This document shows, in pieces, positions 7,968 through 44,449 of a stretch of 49,821 bases of DNA. Location of the stretch: the NCBI RefSeq assembly GCF_001418415.1, contig NZ_LIQT01000205.1, forward strand, positions 1-49,821, written 5' to 3'. The notes beneath the pieces were generated by a model that was given only the letters and a program-made list of their open reading frames with translations, had not been told where the DNA came from and did not search any database. Both the position numbers and the translations under genes were made by a program. Source of the DNA: Streptomyces hirsutus (GTDB lineage: Bacteria > Actinomycetota > Actinomycetes > Streptomycetales > Streptomycetaceae). Numbering within the stretch: position 1 is the stretch's first letter; every line of letters begins with the position of its first letter.

Positions 7968-9215
7968 GTGAGCGAGACCGAGGTCACCACCGCACCGCGC
8001 CCCCTGCTGCTGGCCGACGGCCGGCCGGCCCTCCACGCGTGGTCGCTGGACCCGGCCCTGCGGCACCTCAACCACGGTTCGTTCGGGGCGGTCCCGCTGG
8101 TGGCGCAGGAACACCAGCAGCGGGTGCGGGAGGAGATGGAGAGCGCGCCGGTGGTCTGGTTCCCCGCGCTGCCGCGGCGGCTCGCGGAGGCCAGGACCGA
8201 CCTCGCCGCGTTCCTCGGGGCGGACCCCGGTGACCTCGCCCTGGTGCCGAACGCGAGCGCCGGCGCCAGCGTCGTCTACGCCAACCTCGAACGCCGCCAC
8301 GGCGGGGAGATCGTCGTCACCGACCACGGCTACGGCGCCGTCACCATGGGCGCCGAGCGCCTGGCACGGCGCTGGGGCGGCCGGGTCCGTACGGCCACGG
8401 TGCCACTGGACGCGGACGAGGAGCAGGCGTACGAGGCCGTGGCCGCCGAGCTGAGCGACGCCACCGACCTCGTGGTCGTCGACCAGATCACCTCGCCGAC
8501 CGCCCGTCGCATGCCGGTGGAGCGGATCGGCGCCGAGACGCGGCGGCGCGGTGTCCCGCTGCTCGTCGACGGCGCGCACGCGCCGGGGCTGATCGCCGCC
8601 CCGCTCACCGGGACGGCCTGCGACTTCTGGGTCGGCAACCTGCACAAGTGGGCCTGCGCGCCGCGCGGCACCGCCGCCCTGATCGCCCGTGGCCCGCAGC
8701 GGGACGACCTGTATCCGCTGATCGACTCCTGGGGGGCCGAGGACCCGTACCCCGACCGCTTCGACCAGCAGGGCACGATCGACGCCACCGGCCCTCTGGC
8801 CGCCGCCACCGCGATCGGCCTCGTCGAGAGCACCTGGGGCTGGCCCGCCGCCCGCCGCTACATGGACGACCTGGCCGATTACGCCGAGCGGACCATCGGC
8901 GCCGCGCTCGCCGGACTGACGGGCTTCGACGGCCCGGTGGACGTCGGCATGCCCGTGCCCGGGATGCGGCTGGTGCGGCTGCCCGAAGGACTGGCCGACA
9001 GCCGCGTCTCGGCCGACGCGCTGCGCGACCGGGCGGCCGGGGAGCTGGGGGTGGAGGCCGCCTTCACCAGTTTCGACGGCATCGGTTACCTGCGGCTCTC
9101 CGCCCACGTCTACAACACCGCCGAGGACTACGAGCACTTCGCCGAGCACTGCGTTCCGATCCTCGGAGAGTGGGCCCGCGCGGCCCGCGCAGAGCAGCGG
9201 CCCCGCGCTTCCTAG
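7968..9215 (+). CDS. PLP-dependent class V aminotransferase (isopenicillin N epimerase-like)
   Basis: Pyridoxal-phosphate enzyme of fold type I, class V, 415 residues, the usual length. Visible are the N-terminal LNHGSFGAVP (about 34-43), VDGAHAPG (about 201-208, with the Asp that contacts the pyridine ring and a following His), and the Schiff-base lysine in GNLHKWACAPRG (about K227). This pattern matches the isopenicillin N epimerase-like subgroup, whose members are epimerases, desulfurases or aminotransferases; no beta-lactam genes are nearby, so substrate is open. GTG 7968 is chosen because GGGAG lies about 4 nt upstream; an earlier in-frame ATG at 7917 lacks one. Confidence 0.83.
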   Translation: MSETEVTTAPRPLLLADGRPALHAWSLDPALRHLNHGSFGAVPLVAQEHQQRVREEMESAPVVWFPALPRRLAEARTDLAAFLGADPGDLALVPNASAGASVVYANLERRHGGEIVVTDHGYGAVTMGAERLARRWGGRVRTATVPLDADEEQAYEAVAAELSDATDLVVVDQITSPTARRMPVERIGAETRRRGVPLLVDGAHAPGLIAAPLTGTACDFWVGNLHKWACAPRGTAALIARGPQRDDLYPLIDSWGAEDPYPDRFDQQGTIDATGPLAAATAIGLVESTWGWPAARRYMDDLADYAERTIGAALAGLTGFDGPVDVGMPVPGMRLVRLPEGLADSRVSADALRDRAAGELGVEAAFTSFDGIGYLRLSAHVYNTAEDYEHFAEHCVPILGEWARAARAEQRPRAS

Positions 9216-9504
9216 CGGCGACCGGCGTTCCGCCCCACCCGCGTTCCGGAGGAACCGGCCGCGCAGGGCCGTGTGGCGGAGGACGTACGTGACGCTCCCG
9301 ACCGGCCGGGCGGGGAGTCCGTCCTCGTCGCGCGGCGTGCGTGAGGATCGCATGGAGGCGGGCTCGGCACTCCGTGACGAAGGCGGGAAAAGAGGGCGCG
9401 GCGCTCGGATCCGGCGGCGCGCGCCTCGCCTGCCGGGCGAGCCGGTACGCGTCGGCCTCCCGCATGAGTTCCTGAGCACGGATCCGATGCAACTCGACGC
9501 GCAT
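9064..9504 (-). CDS. Small Arg-rich protein, doubtful 3' part
   Basis: The N-terminus, MRVELHRIRAQELMREADAYRLARQARR, follows the pattern of short Streptomyces proteins that start with an amphipathic RxRAxEL..ADxxRLAR helix, and GGGGTGA precedes ATG 9504. The downstream part degenerates into Pro/Arg-rich sequence, and the reading frame stays open into the convergent aminotransferase gene (152-bp overlap). Either the real gene ends near 9215 after a frameshift or the 3' end is decayed. Function unknown. Confidence 0.35.
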   Translation of the reverse strand: MRVELHRIRAQELMREADAYRLARQARRAPPDPSAAPSFPAFVTECRARLHAILTHAARRGRTPRPAGRERHVRPPPHGPARPVPPERGWGGTPVAARKRGAAALRGPRGPTLRGSERSARRSARSPRRCCRRGRRAAGNRCRRNW

Positions 9505-9942
9505 ACCGTTCACCCCGGTTCCTGACGCCGAGCCCTCTGCCCGGCCCTCCTGAGGCTGCGGCCTCACCCAAGGTGAAGGTCAACCACCGGCGCCCGCACC
9601 GCCGGGACCGTCACGCCGACGGCGTTCGCGACCGGCGAAGGCGCGGGTCCGAGGCTCGGGGTGGTGTCGGGAAGAAGCCGCCGTCAGGACAGGAGCTTTT
9701 TCCTTCAGGCCCTGGCCGACGCCACCGACGGCTTCCACTGCGCGGCCGGGGAAGCATCCGCCACCGAGTCCCTGCACCTGCACCTGCTCGTGACCTGGAG
9801 TGGTTGTACGGGGGCTCGTAGCGTCCGTCCCGGTTCGGGTGGGCAGGTCGGCGAGGGGCCTGGGAGGCCGGGAGGGCTGAGCGGCTTGAGGAGTCTGAGA
9901 GGCCCGAGCGGCCTGGGAGGCCCGGGAGGACGAAACGACGAA

Positions 9943-38773: not shown

Positions 38774-38794
38774 AATACGACAGTGGAGGGCGTC

Positions 38795-39259
38795 ATGGGG
38801 ACTGCGACAGGCAAGAAGCTCGAACCAGGCGTGGTGGACGCGAACGATGCGCAGCGGGCTCTGCGGCGGATCAACGGCTACCTTTCACGCGCAGCGCAGA
38901 GCGACGAGGACATCCAGGTTCACCTGGAGACGGGCGCCGGCGACGAAGCTCTCGTCCTGCCGCGGCCGGTGGCGGAAATGTTCGCATCGATACTGGCAGC
39001 TCTCGCCAATGGACAAGGCGTCCAGATCATGCCGGTCGACGCGGAGCTGACGACCCAGCAGGCCGCCGACATGCTGAACGTGTCCCGTCCGTACTTGATC
39101 GGTCTGCTTGAGTCCGGCGAGATCCCCTTCAGGCTCGTGGGGCGTCACCGCCGTATCCGCTTCGCCGATCTGCGCCAGTATCTGCGTGAGGACGACGCGA
39201 GGCGCAAGGGCGCGGCCGACGAGTTGATGGAGCTGGACCAGGAGCTGGGGCTGCTCTGA
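38795..39259 (+). CDS. HTH (excisionase/MerR-like) antitoxin
   Basis: A 154-residue protein. N-terminal residues 1-75 form a helical region; about 85-135 is an excisionase-type winged helix: LTTQQAADMLNVSRPYLIGLLESGEIPFRLVGRHRRIRFADLRQYL. It is followed, with one base between stop and start, by a PIN-domain gene, so it is the cognate antitoxin and operon repressor of a type II toxin-antitoxin pair. ATG 38795 has GGAGGG 4 nt upstream; GTG 38783 is less likely. Confidence 0.82.
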   Translation: MGTATGKKLEPGVVDANDAQRALRRINGYLSRAAQSDEDIQVHLETGAGDEALVLPRPVAEMFASILAALANGQGVQIMPVDAELTTQQAADMLNVSRPYLIGLLESGEIPFRLVGRHRRIRFADLRQYLREDDARRKGAADELMELDQELGLL

Positions 39260-39260
39260 C

Positions 39261-39827
39261 ATGACCTTCGTCGTGATCTATGACGCGTGCGTCTTATATC
39301 CCAACACGCTGCGTGACCTGCTGATCCGTGTCAGCCGGAGGGGATTCGTCTGTGCCAGGTGGACAGAAGTGATCCTCGACGAGGTGGACCGGAACATTGC
39401 GCGGGACTACGACATCGCTCCTGAAACTCTGGCGCGTCGGAGAGCTCTCATGAACGGAGCCGTACGCGACTGCTTGGTCAGGGGCTTTGAGCCCCTTGTC
39501 GAGGGGCTCAAGTTGCCGGACATGGACGACAGGCACGTCCTGGCTGCTGCCATCCAGGCGGGCGCGCAAGTGATCGTCACGAACAACCGCAAGGACTTCC
39601 CATCCGACTACCTGGCCAATTGGGGGATTGAACGCAAGAACGCCGACGAGTTCATGATGGATCTCATAGGGCTGGACGATCGTGTCGTGTATGCCTGCGT
39701 GCAGGAGATCGCCACCTCTCGACGGCGTCCGCCGCAGACGTTCGACGACGTACTGGGGCAACTGGAAAGATCAGGTCTCACCGAGTCCGTGGCCGCCCTA
39801 CGCCATGGACCGGGAGCCGTGAGCTAG
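39261..39827 (+). CDS. PIN-domain ribonuclease toxin
   Basis: A 188-residue predicted Mg2+-dependent RNase of the PIN fold. The acidic residues are visible: Asp in VVIYDACVLYP (about D8), Glu in EVILDEVDRNI (about E40), Asp in LKLPDMDDRHVLAAAI (about 91-94) and the VIVTNNRKDFP strand (about 109-119), where the family usually has a fourth acidic residue. It is coupled to the upstream HTH antitoxin. Free toxin probably cleaves RNA; specificity unknown. It lies just outside the left repeat of the putative island. Confidence 0.86.
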   Translation: MTFVVIYDACVLYPNTLRDLLIRVSRRGFVCARWTEVILDEVDRNIARDYDIAPETLARRRALMNGAVRDCLVRGFEPLVEGLKLPDMDDRHVLAAAIQAGAQVIVTNNRKDFPSDYLANWGIERKNADEFMMDLIGLDDRVVYACVQEIATSRRRPPQTFDDVLGQLERSGLTESVAALRHGPGAVS

Positions 39828-40531: not shown

Positions 40532-40810
40532 GATTCCCCCCGCAGTACGAGCCGCAATGCTGGTACTACACAGCTCCCCACATCCCAGCGTGCGGTAAAC
40601 AACGCAGCACGATGGGTAGCATCCGGCGCCTGCGCCTGCCGCAATGTTTGGCACGGCGGCGTGCCCATCACCGCTCTGGGAGAGAGGCTGGGGCATCGGG
40701 CCGGTGACCTGCGGCTTCGATGCCTGGTGAGATGCCCGGCAACTCGACAGTCAGACAATCTTGTTGACCGTGGCTGACCGCTGCATCTGGCACGACAGTG
40801 GCACGAATCT

Positions 40811-40924
40811 CAGCCGACGACAGTCAGCCACGACGGCGGGTGCGCCGGCCGACCAGCGCGCGTGTGCCTTGCTGCACCCCCACTGGCCTCCGCCACGCTG
40901 CCGTCGACCAGAGCAAGCCGCGAC
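40811..40924. repeat. Degenerate direct repeat, copy A (flanks endonuclease gene)
   Basis: Begins CAGCCGACGACAGTCAGCC and ends AAGCCGCGAC. It matches 42242-42365 in the same orientation over most of its length (shared blocks GTCAGCCACGACGGCGGG, GCTGCACCCCCAC, GTCGACCA) with small indels. Confidence 0.65.
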
Positions 40925-40995
40925 GGCCGTCCCGTAACCACGGTGCCTGAGCCCTCAGCTTGGGAAGCTGGGGTCCTTGAGGGGAATTTCCCTGG

Positions 40996-41802
40996 TTAGT
41001 CAGAGGACATGTTGCGAATCGCAGCCAAAAGGTCTGTTAGCTCTGGAGGCTGCAAGTCTTGCCAACGAATATCGCTATTTCCGTAACCTATCATGTGGCC
41101 ATAGATTCGATCACATGTCTCAAGGGTTTTTTCGGCGACGAATAGAAGCCCATCCCAGTTTTTGACGTCGATCAGACCGTTTGAGTAGTCTTCAGCCTGG
41201 TCTAGTGGCCGGTAGGGTACGGGCCATCGATTGAAACTCGCAGCCTCAAGAGAATCTTTCAACATACTAAGGCATGCTCTTACTGCAATCGGTTCTTTTA
41301 GGCCAAAGGACTCGGGACCTATATACCGCGAGTTGACCCTATTCCGCTCGGCCGCATTCAGGTTCCAAATGGAATGAAATTTGTTCTCAAGCTCTGCGAT
41401 CCTTCCAACCAGGTCGCTCACCTTGATTGAGGAAAGTTCGTTTGCCGAGTTGCTGACGAAGTCTATCAGGTTGGTAAGCGTAATACTACTGTTGCGGGAT
41501 GCGCGCACTGCGCCGGCCTGAAAACCTCCTTCCGCAAAGATCAGGCCGCGGTCCGCCCCGACGTCGTCAATAATTGAGGCAAAGGCTAGGACGCGCTCTT
41601 TCGGCACAGGCCGCTTCCATTTCTTGCACTCGACGATCCAAAGTTGATCAATCCCGGCGTATCTGATTCGCGCTGTGACATCGACTTCATGTCTCCCTCT
41701 AGCTCCTTCGATTACCTCTTCAACCTTTGTGGCGAAGCCGAATTCGGACAATGTTTCAGATACTTTGATCTGATATTTTTCCCATTCTTTCCTTTGGTTC
41801 AC
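40996..41802 (-). CDS. Mrr-like restriction endonuclease-fold protein
   Basis: A 268-residue protein of visibly lower GC than its surroundings. The N-terminal PD-(D/E)xK nuclease domain (about 1-110) has RHEVDVTARIRYAGIDQLWIVECKKWKRPVPKERVLAFASII, with catalytic Asp in EVDV, Glu/Lys in VECKKW, and VGADRGLIFAEGGFQAGAV completing the Mrr_cat pattern. The C-terminal half (about 120-268) is helical and unrecognised. GTG 41802 has TAGGAG 4 nt upstream. A solitary Mrr-type nuclease would cut modified or invading DNA; no methyltransferase partner is nearby. Probably horizontally acquired. Confidence 0.75.
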   Translation of the reverse strand: MNQRKEWEKYQIKVSETLSEFGFATKVEEVIEGARGRHEVDVTARIRYAGIDQLWIVECKKWKRPVPKERVLAFASIIDDVGADRGLIFAEGGFQAGAVRASRNSSITLTNLIDFVSNSANELSSIKVSDLVGRIAELENKFHSIWNLNAAERNRVNSRYIGPESFGLKEPIAVRACLSMLKDSLEAASFNRWPVPYRPLDQAEDYSNGLIDVKNWDGLLFVAEKTLETCDRIYGHMIGYGNSDIRWQDLQPPELTDLLAAIRNMSSD

Positions 41803-42241
41803 GAGACTCCTAAAAACTCAATCGAAAGACGGTAGATCGGCTTGCAGCACCGCATACATTTTAGGGCTTTCCATCACTTCGCGAACAAGGCCATTTCGGG
41901 AATGGCGAGGGTCTGTGCACCGCTTGCTTTGACAGCTGAGGGGAGATCTCGGAGGGGGCTGTCCCGCGAGTGTTTCGTCAACACGCATGTATCAAGAATT
42001 ACCAATCTTCACCTCTAGCTCTGGGCAAGTGTGCACTTTGTCATTGACGCTTCCCCTGCGAGCCTGAAATTTTTCCACAGGTAACGGGAGTTGGGAGCTA
42101 GTGACTGAGAGGCGCGGGAGCTGCAGGGGAGCGACCGGTCGGTGGAGCGGCTTTAGACTGGAATTTCGATGACTGAGTCAAGGCCGTGGGGCGCTCTCCG
42201 CCAAGGCGTGTGGCATGTCGTCTCGGTGATCGGTTGCGCCT
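41803..42241. other. AT-richer intergenic region inside the island
   Basis: No gene is supported. It carries the promoter side of the endonuclease gene and isolated sequence features such as TTTTTCCACAGG near 42070 (resembling a single DnaA box), without a cluster that would indicate an origin. Confidence 0.35.
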
Positions 42242-42365
42242 GAGCCGACGAAAGTCAGCCACGACGGCGGGCATGCCGACCGGTCAGGCGCGTGTGTGTC
42301 TCGCTGCACCCCCACCGACATCAGCCACGCTATCGGGCCTGTCGTCGACCACAGCAGGCCGCGAC
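42242..42365. repeat. Degenerate direct repeat, copy B
   Basis: Second copy of the repeat at 40811-40924, ending 50 bp before the DUF262 stop. The two copies bracket the endonuclease gene and could mark its insertion as a unit. Confidence 0.65.
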
Positions 42366-42414
42366 TGCCGACGCGGACGAGTGTGTCTAGCTAATCTCAG
42401 TTCACGAGGGCCAG

Positions 42415-43425
42415 TTACGAAGAAATCGTGACGAGAATCCCTTGAATAACTCCACCCCGATTAATCCTACTGTTCCGATCGTTGATTCCAGACCTCACGC
42501 GCCGATAGTACTCAGCCGCTTCAGGTGAGGGATTTGGTGCGCGCGTGACATCCTCAACTTCTTCATAAAAGGCGATGAGTTTGGCCGCCGCATCGGCGGA
42601 AGGCAGCGATCTCTTGTCGTACACGAGTGTGCGGTAGAGTTCGACAATCAACGTAAACAAATCGGCCTTTTGCCACACCCGGCTCTTGGTAGGAAATTGG
42701 CACTCATCAATGAATGAGAATACTTTCTCGAACCCTTCCTTAACTTCCCCGCTCATGGGGAAATCATCATTGTACTGATCAAGGTACTGCTCGTGCTCTT
42801 CATCGCGCCTGAAGTACCCACTCATGACGGTAATGGTCAGAGTGAGCGCAAATCGAATATCGTTCATGCGTCGACCGTCGAGCGACGTGAAAATTTTTCT
42901 GCTTTGAAAGAACGAGTGATTCGCGACTTCTTCGGCAAACCGCTTCAAGGCCCCGTCGAAACGGGAGTTGTTTACCTCCATGGCATTAAGTGAGTAGTTG
43001 GTAGAGTTAATGCGATGGAAAATCTGCCGAGTCTCTTCCTCGGTAAGGGGGCCGAGGTCTCTAATCACCACTTCATATTCGAGAAACTCGCGCTTCTTTT
43101 CGTCGGTGAGTTCTCTGTATTTCGGGATCACGTTGTTAGTGATACGCAAATCGGTCGAGGCCGTAAAGTACTGATGGAGTGTAGTAATCCGCTGCTGTCC
43201 ATCCACGATCAACTCGGTTCCGTCACCAGTGTCCGGATTTACATCTCCGGCAGAGATGAAGATTTCAGGGAACGGAAGTCCGTCTAGCACGGTGGCGACG
43301 AATGCGACTTTGTGCTCGTTCGACCACACGAGACGACGCTGGAAGTGAGGATTAGGGATGAGTGTCTTGTCGCGGATCCCGGTGAGCAGCATCCGCAGCC
43401 TCTTGTTCGTCGCTGAAGTCTGCAT
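42415..43425 (-). CDS. DUF262 (GmrS-like, ParB/Srx-fold) protein
   Basis: A 336-residue protein. The DUF262 core has NPHFQRRLVWSNEHKVAFVATVLDGLPFPEIFI (about 26-58) and the signature VDGQQRITTLHQYF (about 74-87), the nucleotide-binding/hydrolysing motif of GmrS and DndB/ParB-like folds. A helical domain follows. There is no DUF1524/HNH nuclease domain, so only the sensor/NTPase half of a GmrSD-type protein is present. ATG 43425 shares its A with the upstream TGA (TGATG) and has GGAGG 7 nt upstream, so it is translationally coupled to the nucleotidyltransferase gene. Low GC for this genome. Likely role in defence against modified or foreign DNA, by inference. Confidence 0.84.
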   Translation of the reverse strand: MQTSATNKRLRMLLTGIRDKTLIPNPHFQRRLVWSNEHKVAFVATVLDGLPFPEIFISAGDVNPDTGDGTELIVDGQQRITTLHQYFTASTDLRITNNVIPKYRELTDEKKREFLEYEVVIRDLGPLTEEETRQIFHRINSTNYSLNAMEVNNSRFDGALKRFAEEVANHSFFQSRKIFTSLDGRRMNDIRFALTLTITVMSGYFRRDEEHEQYLDQYNDDFPMSGEVKEGFEKVFSFIDECQFPTKSRVWQKADLFTLIVELYRTLVYDKRSLPSADAAAKLIAFYEEVEDVTRAPNPSPEAAEYYRRVRSGINDRNSRINRGGVIQGILVTISS

Positions 43426-44027
43426 CACAAATCCTCCATAGCCTCGCGACAGGATTTAACTGCTCGCTGTTGGTATTGGGTCAGGAAGCGCATGTCGTGA
43501 TACAAGGCTCCGGCGATCTTATATGGGCCGAATTTTCGGCTTTGTTGTAGCTGTCTGAAGAACTGTCGCCAATCCTCAGAGAATTGAAATGAGGGGGATC
43601 TTGGTAGCATGTCCGGGCGAATCCATCCCCATGAGATGTACTGTTCGAATCGACTTTGTCTTGGCCAGTCAGCTCCTGAGTCCGCATAGGTGTGAGCTTC
43701 GTGCCAGACCTTCTCATATAGATCGTGACTCACGATTGCGACATCAATATCTGATACATCTCCGAAGCGGCGATATCTTTTATGGGGAGCGATGCTGAAA
43801 CCAAGTCTCGCTGACCCTACAAGGAAAATGTCTTGATGTGGCGCAATAGAGAATCGCTCCGAAATGGCTTCTTTAAGAGCGAAGTGCTGGTCATCCGAAA
43901 GTGCGTAGCACGCTCCGTGGAGAAGCTTTGAATTGACTATGCGTTCATCGCTCGGCTCGGCTGAGAGGAAACTCTCAAAATGTTTCTTTGGGTCTGTAGT
44001 GAACTGTTCGGAGCTATTCGGCCCCAC
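43425..44027 (-). CDS. Nucleotidyltransferase-fold protein (partner of DUF262)
   Basis: About 200 residues. The core motif of polymerase-beta-like nucleotidyltransferases is visible: DIFLVGSARLGFSIAP (hG-S pattern, about 65-80) followed by GDVSDIDVAIVSHDLY (Dh-D-h metal-binding pair, about 88-103). The C-terminus is helical and aromatic (FEQYISWGWIRPDMLP, FRQLQQSRKFGPYKIAGALYHDMRFL). GTG 44027 with GGGGGGA 2 nt upstream and an earlier TTG 44075 are both possible starts. Its TGA overlaps the DUF262 ATG. The pair may modify nucleic acid or protein, such as by AMPylation. Low GC; horizontal origin likely. Confidence 0.75.
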   Translation of the reverse strand: MGPNSSEQFTTDPKKHFESFLSAEPSDERIVNSKLLHGACYALSDDQHFALKEAISERFSIAPHQDIFLVGSARLGFSIAPHKRYRRFGDVSDIDVAIVSHDLYEKVWHEAHTYADSGADWPRQSRFEQYISWGWIRPDMLPRSPSFQFSEDWRQFFRQLQQSRKFGPYKIAGALYHDMRFLTQYQQRAVKSCREAMEDL

Positions 44028-44254
44028 GGTCCCCCCATAGCCGGTTCGAGTATGCTGCCGAGAATATACAACCAACTCCGGCTGCCTGTCAGGAGATGCG
44101 TAAGATGTCCAGCTCGCGGGCGCAGGGCGGAGTCAGAAGCCACCTGGCTGGAGAGGCGTGGACCCCGCGACGACATTCCTCGTTGGCAACAGTTGGCTAT
44201 ACATTGCTGCGCGCGGCGCGGGCGCCGGCCGGGCTGGAGCGGGACGAAGGCAGG

Positions 44255-44283
44255 AGCGCGGCCCGGCCGGGGGTCGGGCCGCG
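44255..44283. terminator. GC-rich hairpin in the spacer
   Basis: 10-bp perfect stem GCGCGGCCCG/CGGGCCGCGC with a 9-nt loop. It separates the low-GC minus-strand pair from the plus-strand regulator cluster. The rest of 44028-44449 holds no gene; TTGACA at 44370-44375 could be a -35 for the XRE gene. Confidence 0.5.
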
Positions 44284-44449
44284 CGCGGGGAGCGGAGCGA
44301 GCCGCCTTGAACCAGTAGAGAAGGTTGTAACTCAGTGAGGTTCAGGAGCCTGTCCGGTCCCGGGAGAGGCTTGACACTTCGGTTCCAGAGGGTGGTTGGT
44401 GAGGCTCACGCTCCCGGCTCCTGCTGGCAGGTGGTGTAGAACCCTGGGC

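Follow-up and report, generated by a model that had tools for sequence, protein, structure and literature searches.

A 49,821-nucleotide stretch of the Streptomyces hirsutus genome (RefSeq assembly GCF_001418415.1, contig NZ_LIQT01000205.1, positions 1 to 49,821; hereafter the window) encodes on its minus strand, at 42415-44075, a small nucleotidyltransferase (NTase) gene followed by a stand-alone DUF262 gene. We hypothesize, at a probability of roughly 0.52, that the two products form a two-component anti-phage system, with the DUF262 protein as sensor and the NTase as effector, carried as cargo at variable defense sites. That the pair is a real, conserved and co-inherited two-gene unit is near certain. 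Both genes are complete open reading frames (ORFs), and their main features are as follows, with the coordinates of the four protein motifs counted from the sequence and invariance given over the 21 intact pairs defined below:

43425-44075, minus strand: NTase gene, with TTG at 44075 and GTG at 44027 (the one taken in the preliminary description) as candidate starts; AlphaFold2 model with a mean predicted local distance difference test (pLDDT) score of 88.4
42415-43425, minus strand: stand-alone DUF262 (GmrSD_N) gene, 336 amino acids from its ATG; AlphaFold2 model with mean pLDDT 89.1
43423-43427, minus strand: TGATG stop-start overlap of the two genes, read directly; translational coupling
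43812-43817, minus strand: GS of the NTase active-site motif, G79-S80 of the 208-amino-acid form; invariant in 21/21
43743-43754, minus strand: SDID, NTase residues 100-103; S100, D101 and D103 invariant in 21/21
43189-43203, minus strand: DGQQR nucleotide-pocket motif of DUF262; invariant in 21/21
43324-43344, minus strand: FQR..VW, a motif of the DUF262 fold whose Q, R, V and W are invariant in 21/21

The DUF262 ORF extends over 42415-43428, and its ATG at 43425, with a GGAGG close upstream, overlaps the stop codon of the NTase gene. The guanine-plus-cytosine (GC) content of the pair is 0.506, versus 0.701 elsewhere in the window (outside 40996-44075), which together with the overlap bears out a preliminary description of this DNA as carrying two low-GC genes joined as TGATG.

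Homologue searches of genomes, viral contigs and plasmids with the NTase alone recovered 25 loci, the window included, and in 24 of them a DUF262 gene follows immediately 3' in the same orientation, an adjacency well in excess of chance. A 26th locus, in Escherichia coli strain 1500 (L097), came from searching with the DNA of two whole pairs and likewise has a DUF262 partner. Motif conservation and protein distances were assessed on 21 of these 26 loci, leaving out L097, which was found later; L016, which has no DUF262 gene; L028, whose scores are identical to those of L027, the two probably being one sequence; L029, whose NTase gene is frameshifted and split near a run of A (the same place as L041 6001-6614); and L005, a broken copy (9057-9655 of the larger locus L010) reduced to a short NTase ORF and a 75-amino-acid DUF262 remnant, with transposase-like ORFs, read by eye, nearby. 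With the starts chosen in our analysis, 20 of the 21 gene junctions range from a 50-base overlap to a 49-base gap, the 371-base overlap at L020 resulting from an over-long ORF start. NTase and DUF262 protein distances are strongly correlated across the 21 pairs (Mantel r 0.88; 0 of 9999 permutations as high) and stay so after dereplication to 10 pairs (r 0.52; again 0 of 9999). The pair occurs in Actinomycetota (Streptosporangium and the window's own genus), in Pseudomonadota (Pseudoalteromonas, Cronobacter and E. coli), and in viral contigs and small plasmids such as a 6.2-kilobase (kb) Cronobacter plasmid. With DUF262 as the next gene in 24 of 25 loci, invariant motifs and correlated distances, the pair moves and diverges as one system, and the adjacency and active-site conservation on which the preliminary description had made its proposal depend are both found.

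The larger protein is matched by the Pfam model GmrSD_N (DUF262, PF03235) at 1.2e-20, and its only other Pfam match at E <= 1 is to AbiJ_NTD3 (0.047, under that model's cut-off). It has no Pfam match at E <= 1 to DUF1524 or HNH, and no nuclease, HEPN or killing domain is recognisable in it by Pfam, in agreement with the first reading of a DUF262 protein standing alone, without the nuclease half of GmrSD. Among PADLOC models it matches NsnA best (96 bits, 5.6e-28) and also PD-T4-2_A (4.3e-15). The top Foldseek match of its structural model is BrxU (E 1.6e-3, probability 0.99), and VIA-align aligns the model over nearly its full length with BrxU (Z 8.4, 272 residues aligned, root-mean-square deviation [rmsd] 11.5) and DndI (Z 6.0, 264 aligned, rmsd 8.0), over 140 residues with SspE (Z 7.6), and at its N terminus with Noc/ParB proteins (up to Z 9.1, 99 aligned, rmsd 2.7). 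The match to BrxU stops at residue 422 of a 580-residue chain, short of the nuclease part of BrxU. As modeled, the DUF262 protein of the window resembles BrxU and DndI minus the nuclease end.

The smaller protein carries the signature GS-x20-DID. A pattern of GS-x17..35-D[ILVF]D, which conforms to the GS...DxD hallmark of the Pol-beta-type nucleotidyltransferase superfamily, is present in 21/21 intact pairs, with the x20 spacing in 15 of them, so that the NTase signature first noticed in the window proves to be a property of the whole family. The aspartates of SDxD, D101 and D103, are presumed to be metal-binding carboxylates, and the protein is probably an active enzyme. The window NTase has no match in the Pfam, PADLOC or NCBIfam libraries. 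Among 20 members of its family, 7 weakly match NTP_transf_2 (PF01909; best 0.0095) and 2 weakly match the PADLOC Cyclase model (best 0.0054); none has a Pfam match at E <= 1 to SMODS or AbiEii (PF08843), and neither they nor the window protein match HEPN at that threshold. A profile comparison against 8 SMODS, 11 AbiEii and 12 NTP_transf_2 proteins gave at best a 27% probability, to NTP_transf_2 over 29 columns, with 0.1% for SMODS and 0.4% for AbiEii, in a test so insensitive that these three families score just 0.2-1.2% among themselves. AlphaFold2 models of the two proteins were built on alignments of 12 and 13 sequences, and VIA-align relates that of the NTase to MNT antitoxins, AadA and CdnD at Z 3.6-5.2; the model fits the NTase superfamily, with no nearer kinship visible. 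No profile supports membership of the NTase in the cyclic oligonucleotide-based antiphage signaling system (CBASS), MNT or AbiE groups, and none of the three was adopted, the profile comparison being too insensitive to rank them. Sequence searches of the PDB gave nothing useful, a match to 7mcd, named as a designed TIM barrel, being disregarded, and three NTase queries found no match in phage records.

These properties bear on two other assignments. The first is a toxin-antitoxin module of the HEPN/MNT kind, in which the NTase would be an antitoxin that silences a toxic DUF262 protein by AMPylation. A coupled two-gene unit with the NTase gene first would suit such a module, MNT antitoxins rank near the top of the structural matches (8xeo, Z 5.2; 8xeh, Z 5.0), and MntA AMPylates HepT, according to the accessible portion of PMC7641770. 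However, the MntA motif given there, GSX10DXD, does not accommodate the x17 to x35 spacing of the present family, the DUF262 protein lacks a Pfam-recognisable nuclease or HEPN domain, and among the relatives described below DUF262 is constant while its partners vary among toxin-like enzymes, a pattern that favors an effector role for the partner; we regard this alternative as unlikely. In the second, the NTase would produce a nucleotide messenger upon infection, as in CBASS, with DUF262 as the nucleotide-binding receiver. The weak structural match to CdnD (Z 3.6-3.7), the nucleotide pocket of DUF262 and the two faint Cyclase matches are consistent with such signaling, but SMODS is matched by 0 of 20 family members, the insensitive profile comparison likewise gives it a negligible score, and the DUF262 protein contains no killing domain that Pfam would recognise. 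We consider this less likely again than the toxin-antitoxin arrangement.

The case for the NTase as effector of a DUF262 sensor comes from the partners of related DUF262 proteins. A DUF262 search of 396 genomes returned 30 matches, whose partners we read, running Pfam on 10 and judging the others from sequence and motif: an NTase in 4 cases (the window included), a HEPN-motif (Rx4H) protein in 8, an EcoRI-type methyltransferase in 6, an OLD-type ATPase in 3 and a RelA_SpoT protein in 1, the remaining 8 being without assignment. The HEPN Pfam cut-off was reached by 1 of the 5 HEPN-motif partners run (L070, 4.1e-16). In a midpoint-rooted tree of 38 DUF262 proteins, 22 of them NTase-paired (L066, L068 and L069 were left out), a supported branch (95/91) holds the NTase-paired proteins together with one RelA-paired and three HEPN-like-paired proteins, and the Menshen, PD-T4-2-like and methyltransferase-associated groups fall outside it. 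A single origin of NTase pairing is not rejected on this tree (approximately unbiased [AU] test, p 0.374). Because DUF262 stays constant while the partners within its group look RNA- or nucleotide-directed, we infer that DUF262 is the switch and the NTase the effector. The effector role had already been suggested in the preliminary description and is better founded through this exchange of partners; we favor it somewhat over other roles for the protein. The single RelA_SpoT case (L059 490-2490, minus strand), a DUF262 gene with a RelA_SpoT gene directly after it (PF04607 3e-7; PADLOC PDC-S33 3.6e-7), is an apparent further two-gene DUF262 system of single occurrence. In Escherichia phage vB_EcoM-689R6 (L100 2501-4212) a DUF262 gene lies beside an integrase gene and is followed by an Rx4H (HEPN-like) protein that has no PADLOC match.

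The methyltransferase partners raise a restriction-like reading, in which DUF262 would act directly on phage DNA and the NTase would modify DNA ends or aid self-recognition, sometimes together with a DNA methyltransferase. DUF262 lies directly 3' of an EcoRI-type adenine methyltransferase at L068, L071, L073, L075, L082 and L085 (assigned by Pfam at L068 and L073 and from the sequence at the others) and may serve as the restriction partner of these enzymes. C5-methyltransferase-like genes stand directly upstream of the pair itself at L030 (4231-5823) and L031 (4703-5851). Among 98 flanking proteins from ten other pair loci compared with defense models at 1e-8, 2 matched type II methyltransferases (best 6.7e-110) and 4 matched mad2, with a SoFic-like protein in L009 and a DruE-like helicase in L088; 3 of the 98 are phage integrases by Pfam. 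Yet a C5-methyltransferase is present in just 2 of the 26 sources scanned, and the HNH half that would cut DNA is missing from the DUF262 protein by Pfam, and we give restriction of this sort a slimmer chance than the signaling scheme. In Vibrio phage L9-1 (L098), too, a gene that contains DUF262 comes after a relative of the L031 C5-methyltransferase (433 bits).

An anti-phage role for the pair is probable, and it is suggested by where the pair is found. In E. coli strain 1500 it lies within a P2-like prophage, between the replication endonuclease (gpA) and portal (gpQ) genes. This interval, the site of old and tin in P2, is an anti-phage system hotspot, and the cI-integrase interval is a further one, as set out in the available part of PMC9122126. 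L026, which carries a P2-type replication gene (3.7e-49), has an integrase-like ORF downstream of the pair and, upstream of it, a repressor-like ORF set apart by one 424-amino-acid ORF (repressor and integrase both read by eye), a layout that resembles the cI-integrase hotspot. In the window, the pair sits between matched edges:

40808-40934, no strand: direct repeat copy 1, non-coding, close to the variable site's left edge; with a match in 5/5 related genomes fetched at length
40996-41802, minus strand: Mrr_cat restriction-endonuclease-like gene (Pfam 1.2e-10)
42239-42375, no strand: direct repeat copy 2, separating the Mrr gene from the pair; with a match in 4/5 of the same genomes
44207-44398, no strand: right edge of the variable site, conserved and lying ahead of an HTH-DUF5753 gene; matched wholly or partly in 5/5

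A 2.4-kb match to the right flank was found in seven genomes, of which five (L107-L111) were taken at length, the loci of L102 and L103 being short. These five match the window on the HTH-DUF5753 side and in the non-coding repeat, and the stretch between differs and is mostly of lower GC. At the window's site L109 carries a PD-Lambda-5_B-like methyltransferase and a HerA-like ATPase; L107 has a mad8-like protein at the site and a CBASS SAVED-nuclease effector (770 bits) just outside the repeat. When nine cargo or edge proteins of L107, L108, L109 and L111 were scanned, two from L108 and one from L111 had no match. Within the window's genus, the interval 40808-44398 adjoins an HTH-DUF5753 gene block and varies in its cargo, which includes defense-type genes in 2 of 5 relatives. 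As to the mobile-looking island beside an Mrr-like nuclease that had been proposed here, the Mrr neighbor stands and mobility is seen in the relatives; no integrase was recognised in the window's island, where no systematic search for one was made. The Mrr gene was considered as a third component of the system and rejected, phmmer having found no homologue of it in the other 25 sources scanned; it is apparently separate cargo. Further left, at 38783-39827 on the plus strand, an HTH_17 gene and, after it, a PIN_3 gene probably make up a toxin-antitoxin pair.

The prophage hotspot, the layout of L026 and the defense cargo of the related genomes together give good support to the defense role put forward at the outset, the activity itself being what we infer from this context. 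The same settings bear on a reading in which the pair is no defense system at all and serves either as a selfish addiction module or in the housekeeping of mobile elements. Its rarity and its presence on small plasmids such as that of Cronobacter would fit, but the sites it occupies, in the P2-like prophage and in the window, are sites of defense cargo, and remoter DUF262 relatives are found in pairs of the Menshen and PD-T4-2-like kinds; we judge this the least probable of the alternatives considered.

For a sensor-effector system we propose the following sequence of events. The DUF262 protein would be the sensor and switch, responding to some feature of invading DNA, and its ParB/sulfiredoxin-like DGQQR pocket would bind, and probably hydrolyze, a nucleoside triphosphate, as in BrxU and SspE. 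The NTase, made in step with DUF262, would then be released or activated and transfer nucleotides to a cellular target, stopping growth or phage replication. The likeliest target would be RNA, perhaps tRNA 3' ends, because the partners of DUF262 proteins in the same subfamily are HEPN-motif (RNase-like) and RelA/SpoT-type proteins; this choice of target is a guess, and a doubtful one. Put together, the pair may be part type IV restriction and part toxin, with a GmrSD-type DNA sensor that does not cut DNA but switches on an NTase that tails host or phage RNA (for example tRNA ends) and so stops translation, a scheme that we offer only tentatively.

Several observations weigh against a dedicated sensor-effector defense system. 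The pair is rare, being found in 6 of the 295 genomes from the window's genus, in 4 of 396 drawn from its phylum (the window's own included in each) and in 1 of 5426 E. coli by blastn. At the sole NTase locus without DUF262, on an Aliarcobacter plasmid (L016 7929-10588), the next gene encodes a 647-amino-acid DUF4365 protein. The NTase lies 5' of DUF262, but the HEPN-motif, RelA and OLD partners lie 3'; the best DUF262 tree requires 3 changes to account for NTase pairing; and the three HEPN-motif partners within the pair's own tree group are below the HEPN Pfam cut-off. On the enzyme itself, D147, the candidate third catalytic carboxylate, is aligned in only 15 of 21 pairs, and Foldseek found no match to the NTase model below E 0.79. 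The top VIA-align row for this model is a ribosomal protein (Z 5.5), above the best MNT antitoxin (5.2); of the structural comparisons proposed earlier, that of DUF262 with BrxU gave a match and those of the NTase with MNT and CdnD gave weak ones. As to co-occurrence with other defense genes, some flanking proteins match defense models at 1e-8, but the PADLOC matches among the 98 flanking proteins are scattered, with no control set compared.

DUF262 is so far understood best in its regulatory role, as one half of enzymes that cut DNA. If the sensor-effector reading is correct, the pair would be one branch of a plug-in family whose common DUF262 sensor can be fitted with different effectors: HEPN RNases, a RelA/SpoT enzyme, OLD nucleases or an NTase. 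The NTase branch is conserved and lies in the same region of the tree as HEPN-motif and RelA/SpoT partners, which suggests that DUF262 may sense infection in general and exchange effectors directed at RNA or nucleotides. Direct testing is feasible: the pair is small, a P2-like prophage of E. coli carries another copy, and point mutants offer clear controls.

Among described systems, Menshen, which we take to consist of NsnA (DUF262), NsnB (an OLD-type ATPase) and NsnC, shares with the pair a stand-alone DUF262 protein, NsnA being the best PADLOC match of the window protein. However, that match is of 96 bits, versus 405 bits for the clear NsnA of the Menshen-like locus L067 (beside an NsnB of 344 bits), and the window DUF262 falls in another tree group. 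NsnB is absent beside it, the partner having no PADLOC match; the source genome (G000) has 6 NsnB-profile matches, all partial and on other contigs, and 0 matches to NsnC at E <= 1. The missing NsnB and NsnC and the tree position rule out Menshen, which is outlined as DUF262 with an OLD nuclease in the accessible text of PMC10952713. The same text gives PD-T4-2 as DUF262 plus HEPN, and this system shields native E. coli from T4 in the available part of PMC9519451. The DUF262 protein is common to both and matches PD-T4-2_A, but the partner in the window is an NTase lying 5' of DUF262 and not a HEPN protein, and PD-T4-2-like pairs occupy a different tree group; PD-T4-2 was dropped, since neither the partner nor 20 members of its family match HEPN at E <= 1. 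GmrSD, BrxU, SspE and DndI share the DUF262 fold and DGQQR pocket, the model aligning with BrxU and DndI over 264-278 residues, but differ in the DUF1524/HNH nuclease domain that Pfam does not find in the window protein at E <= 1. HEPN/MNT modules are alike in having a small NTase of weak structural resemblance within a coupled two-gene unit and differ in motif spacing (GSX10DXD, not x17-x35) and in the partner, here DUF262. With regard to CBASS, the NTase family shows weak Cyclase (2/20) and CdnD matches and 0/20 for SMODS. MenT toxins have another partner, and AbiEii (PF08843), which we take to cover MenT, is without a match in the 20 NTase family members. Their transfer of nucleotides onto tRNA acceptor ends, as presented in the accessible portions of PMC11541572 and PMC10435456, is nevertheless a possible model for the action of the NTase.

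No model in Pfam, NCBIfam or PADLOC describes an NTase-DUF262 pair, and none is reported in the openly licensed PMC literature searched, supplementary tables and newer defense lists excepted. This includes the available text of PMC10952713, PMC3710099, PMC12409362, PMC4619093, PMC8565348, PMC13119452, PMC12707154 and PMC12373910, the last a survey of the 20 commonest GmrSD-family clusters in Enterobacteria, its supplementary tables aside. The preliminary statement that no system of this composition had been described holds for the libraries and literature so covered. DUF262 is common to several defense systems in the accessible text of PMC10952713, and its partners in the literature covered, which also takes in PMC12839542, are DUF1524/HNH, HEPN and OLD. 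The NTase-DUF262 pair is apparently an undescribed variant of DUF262-based defense.

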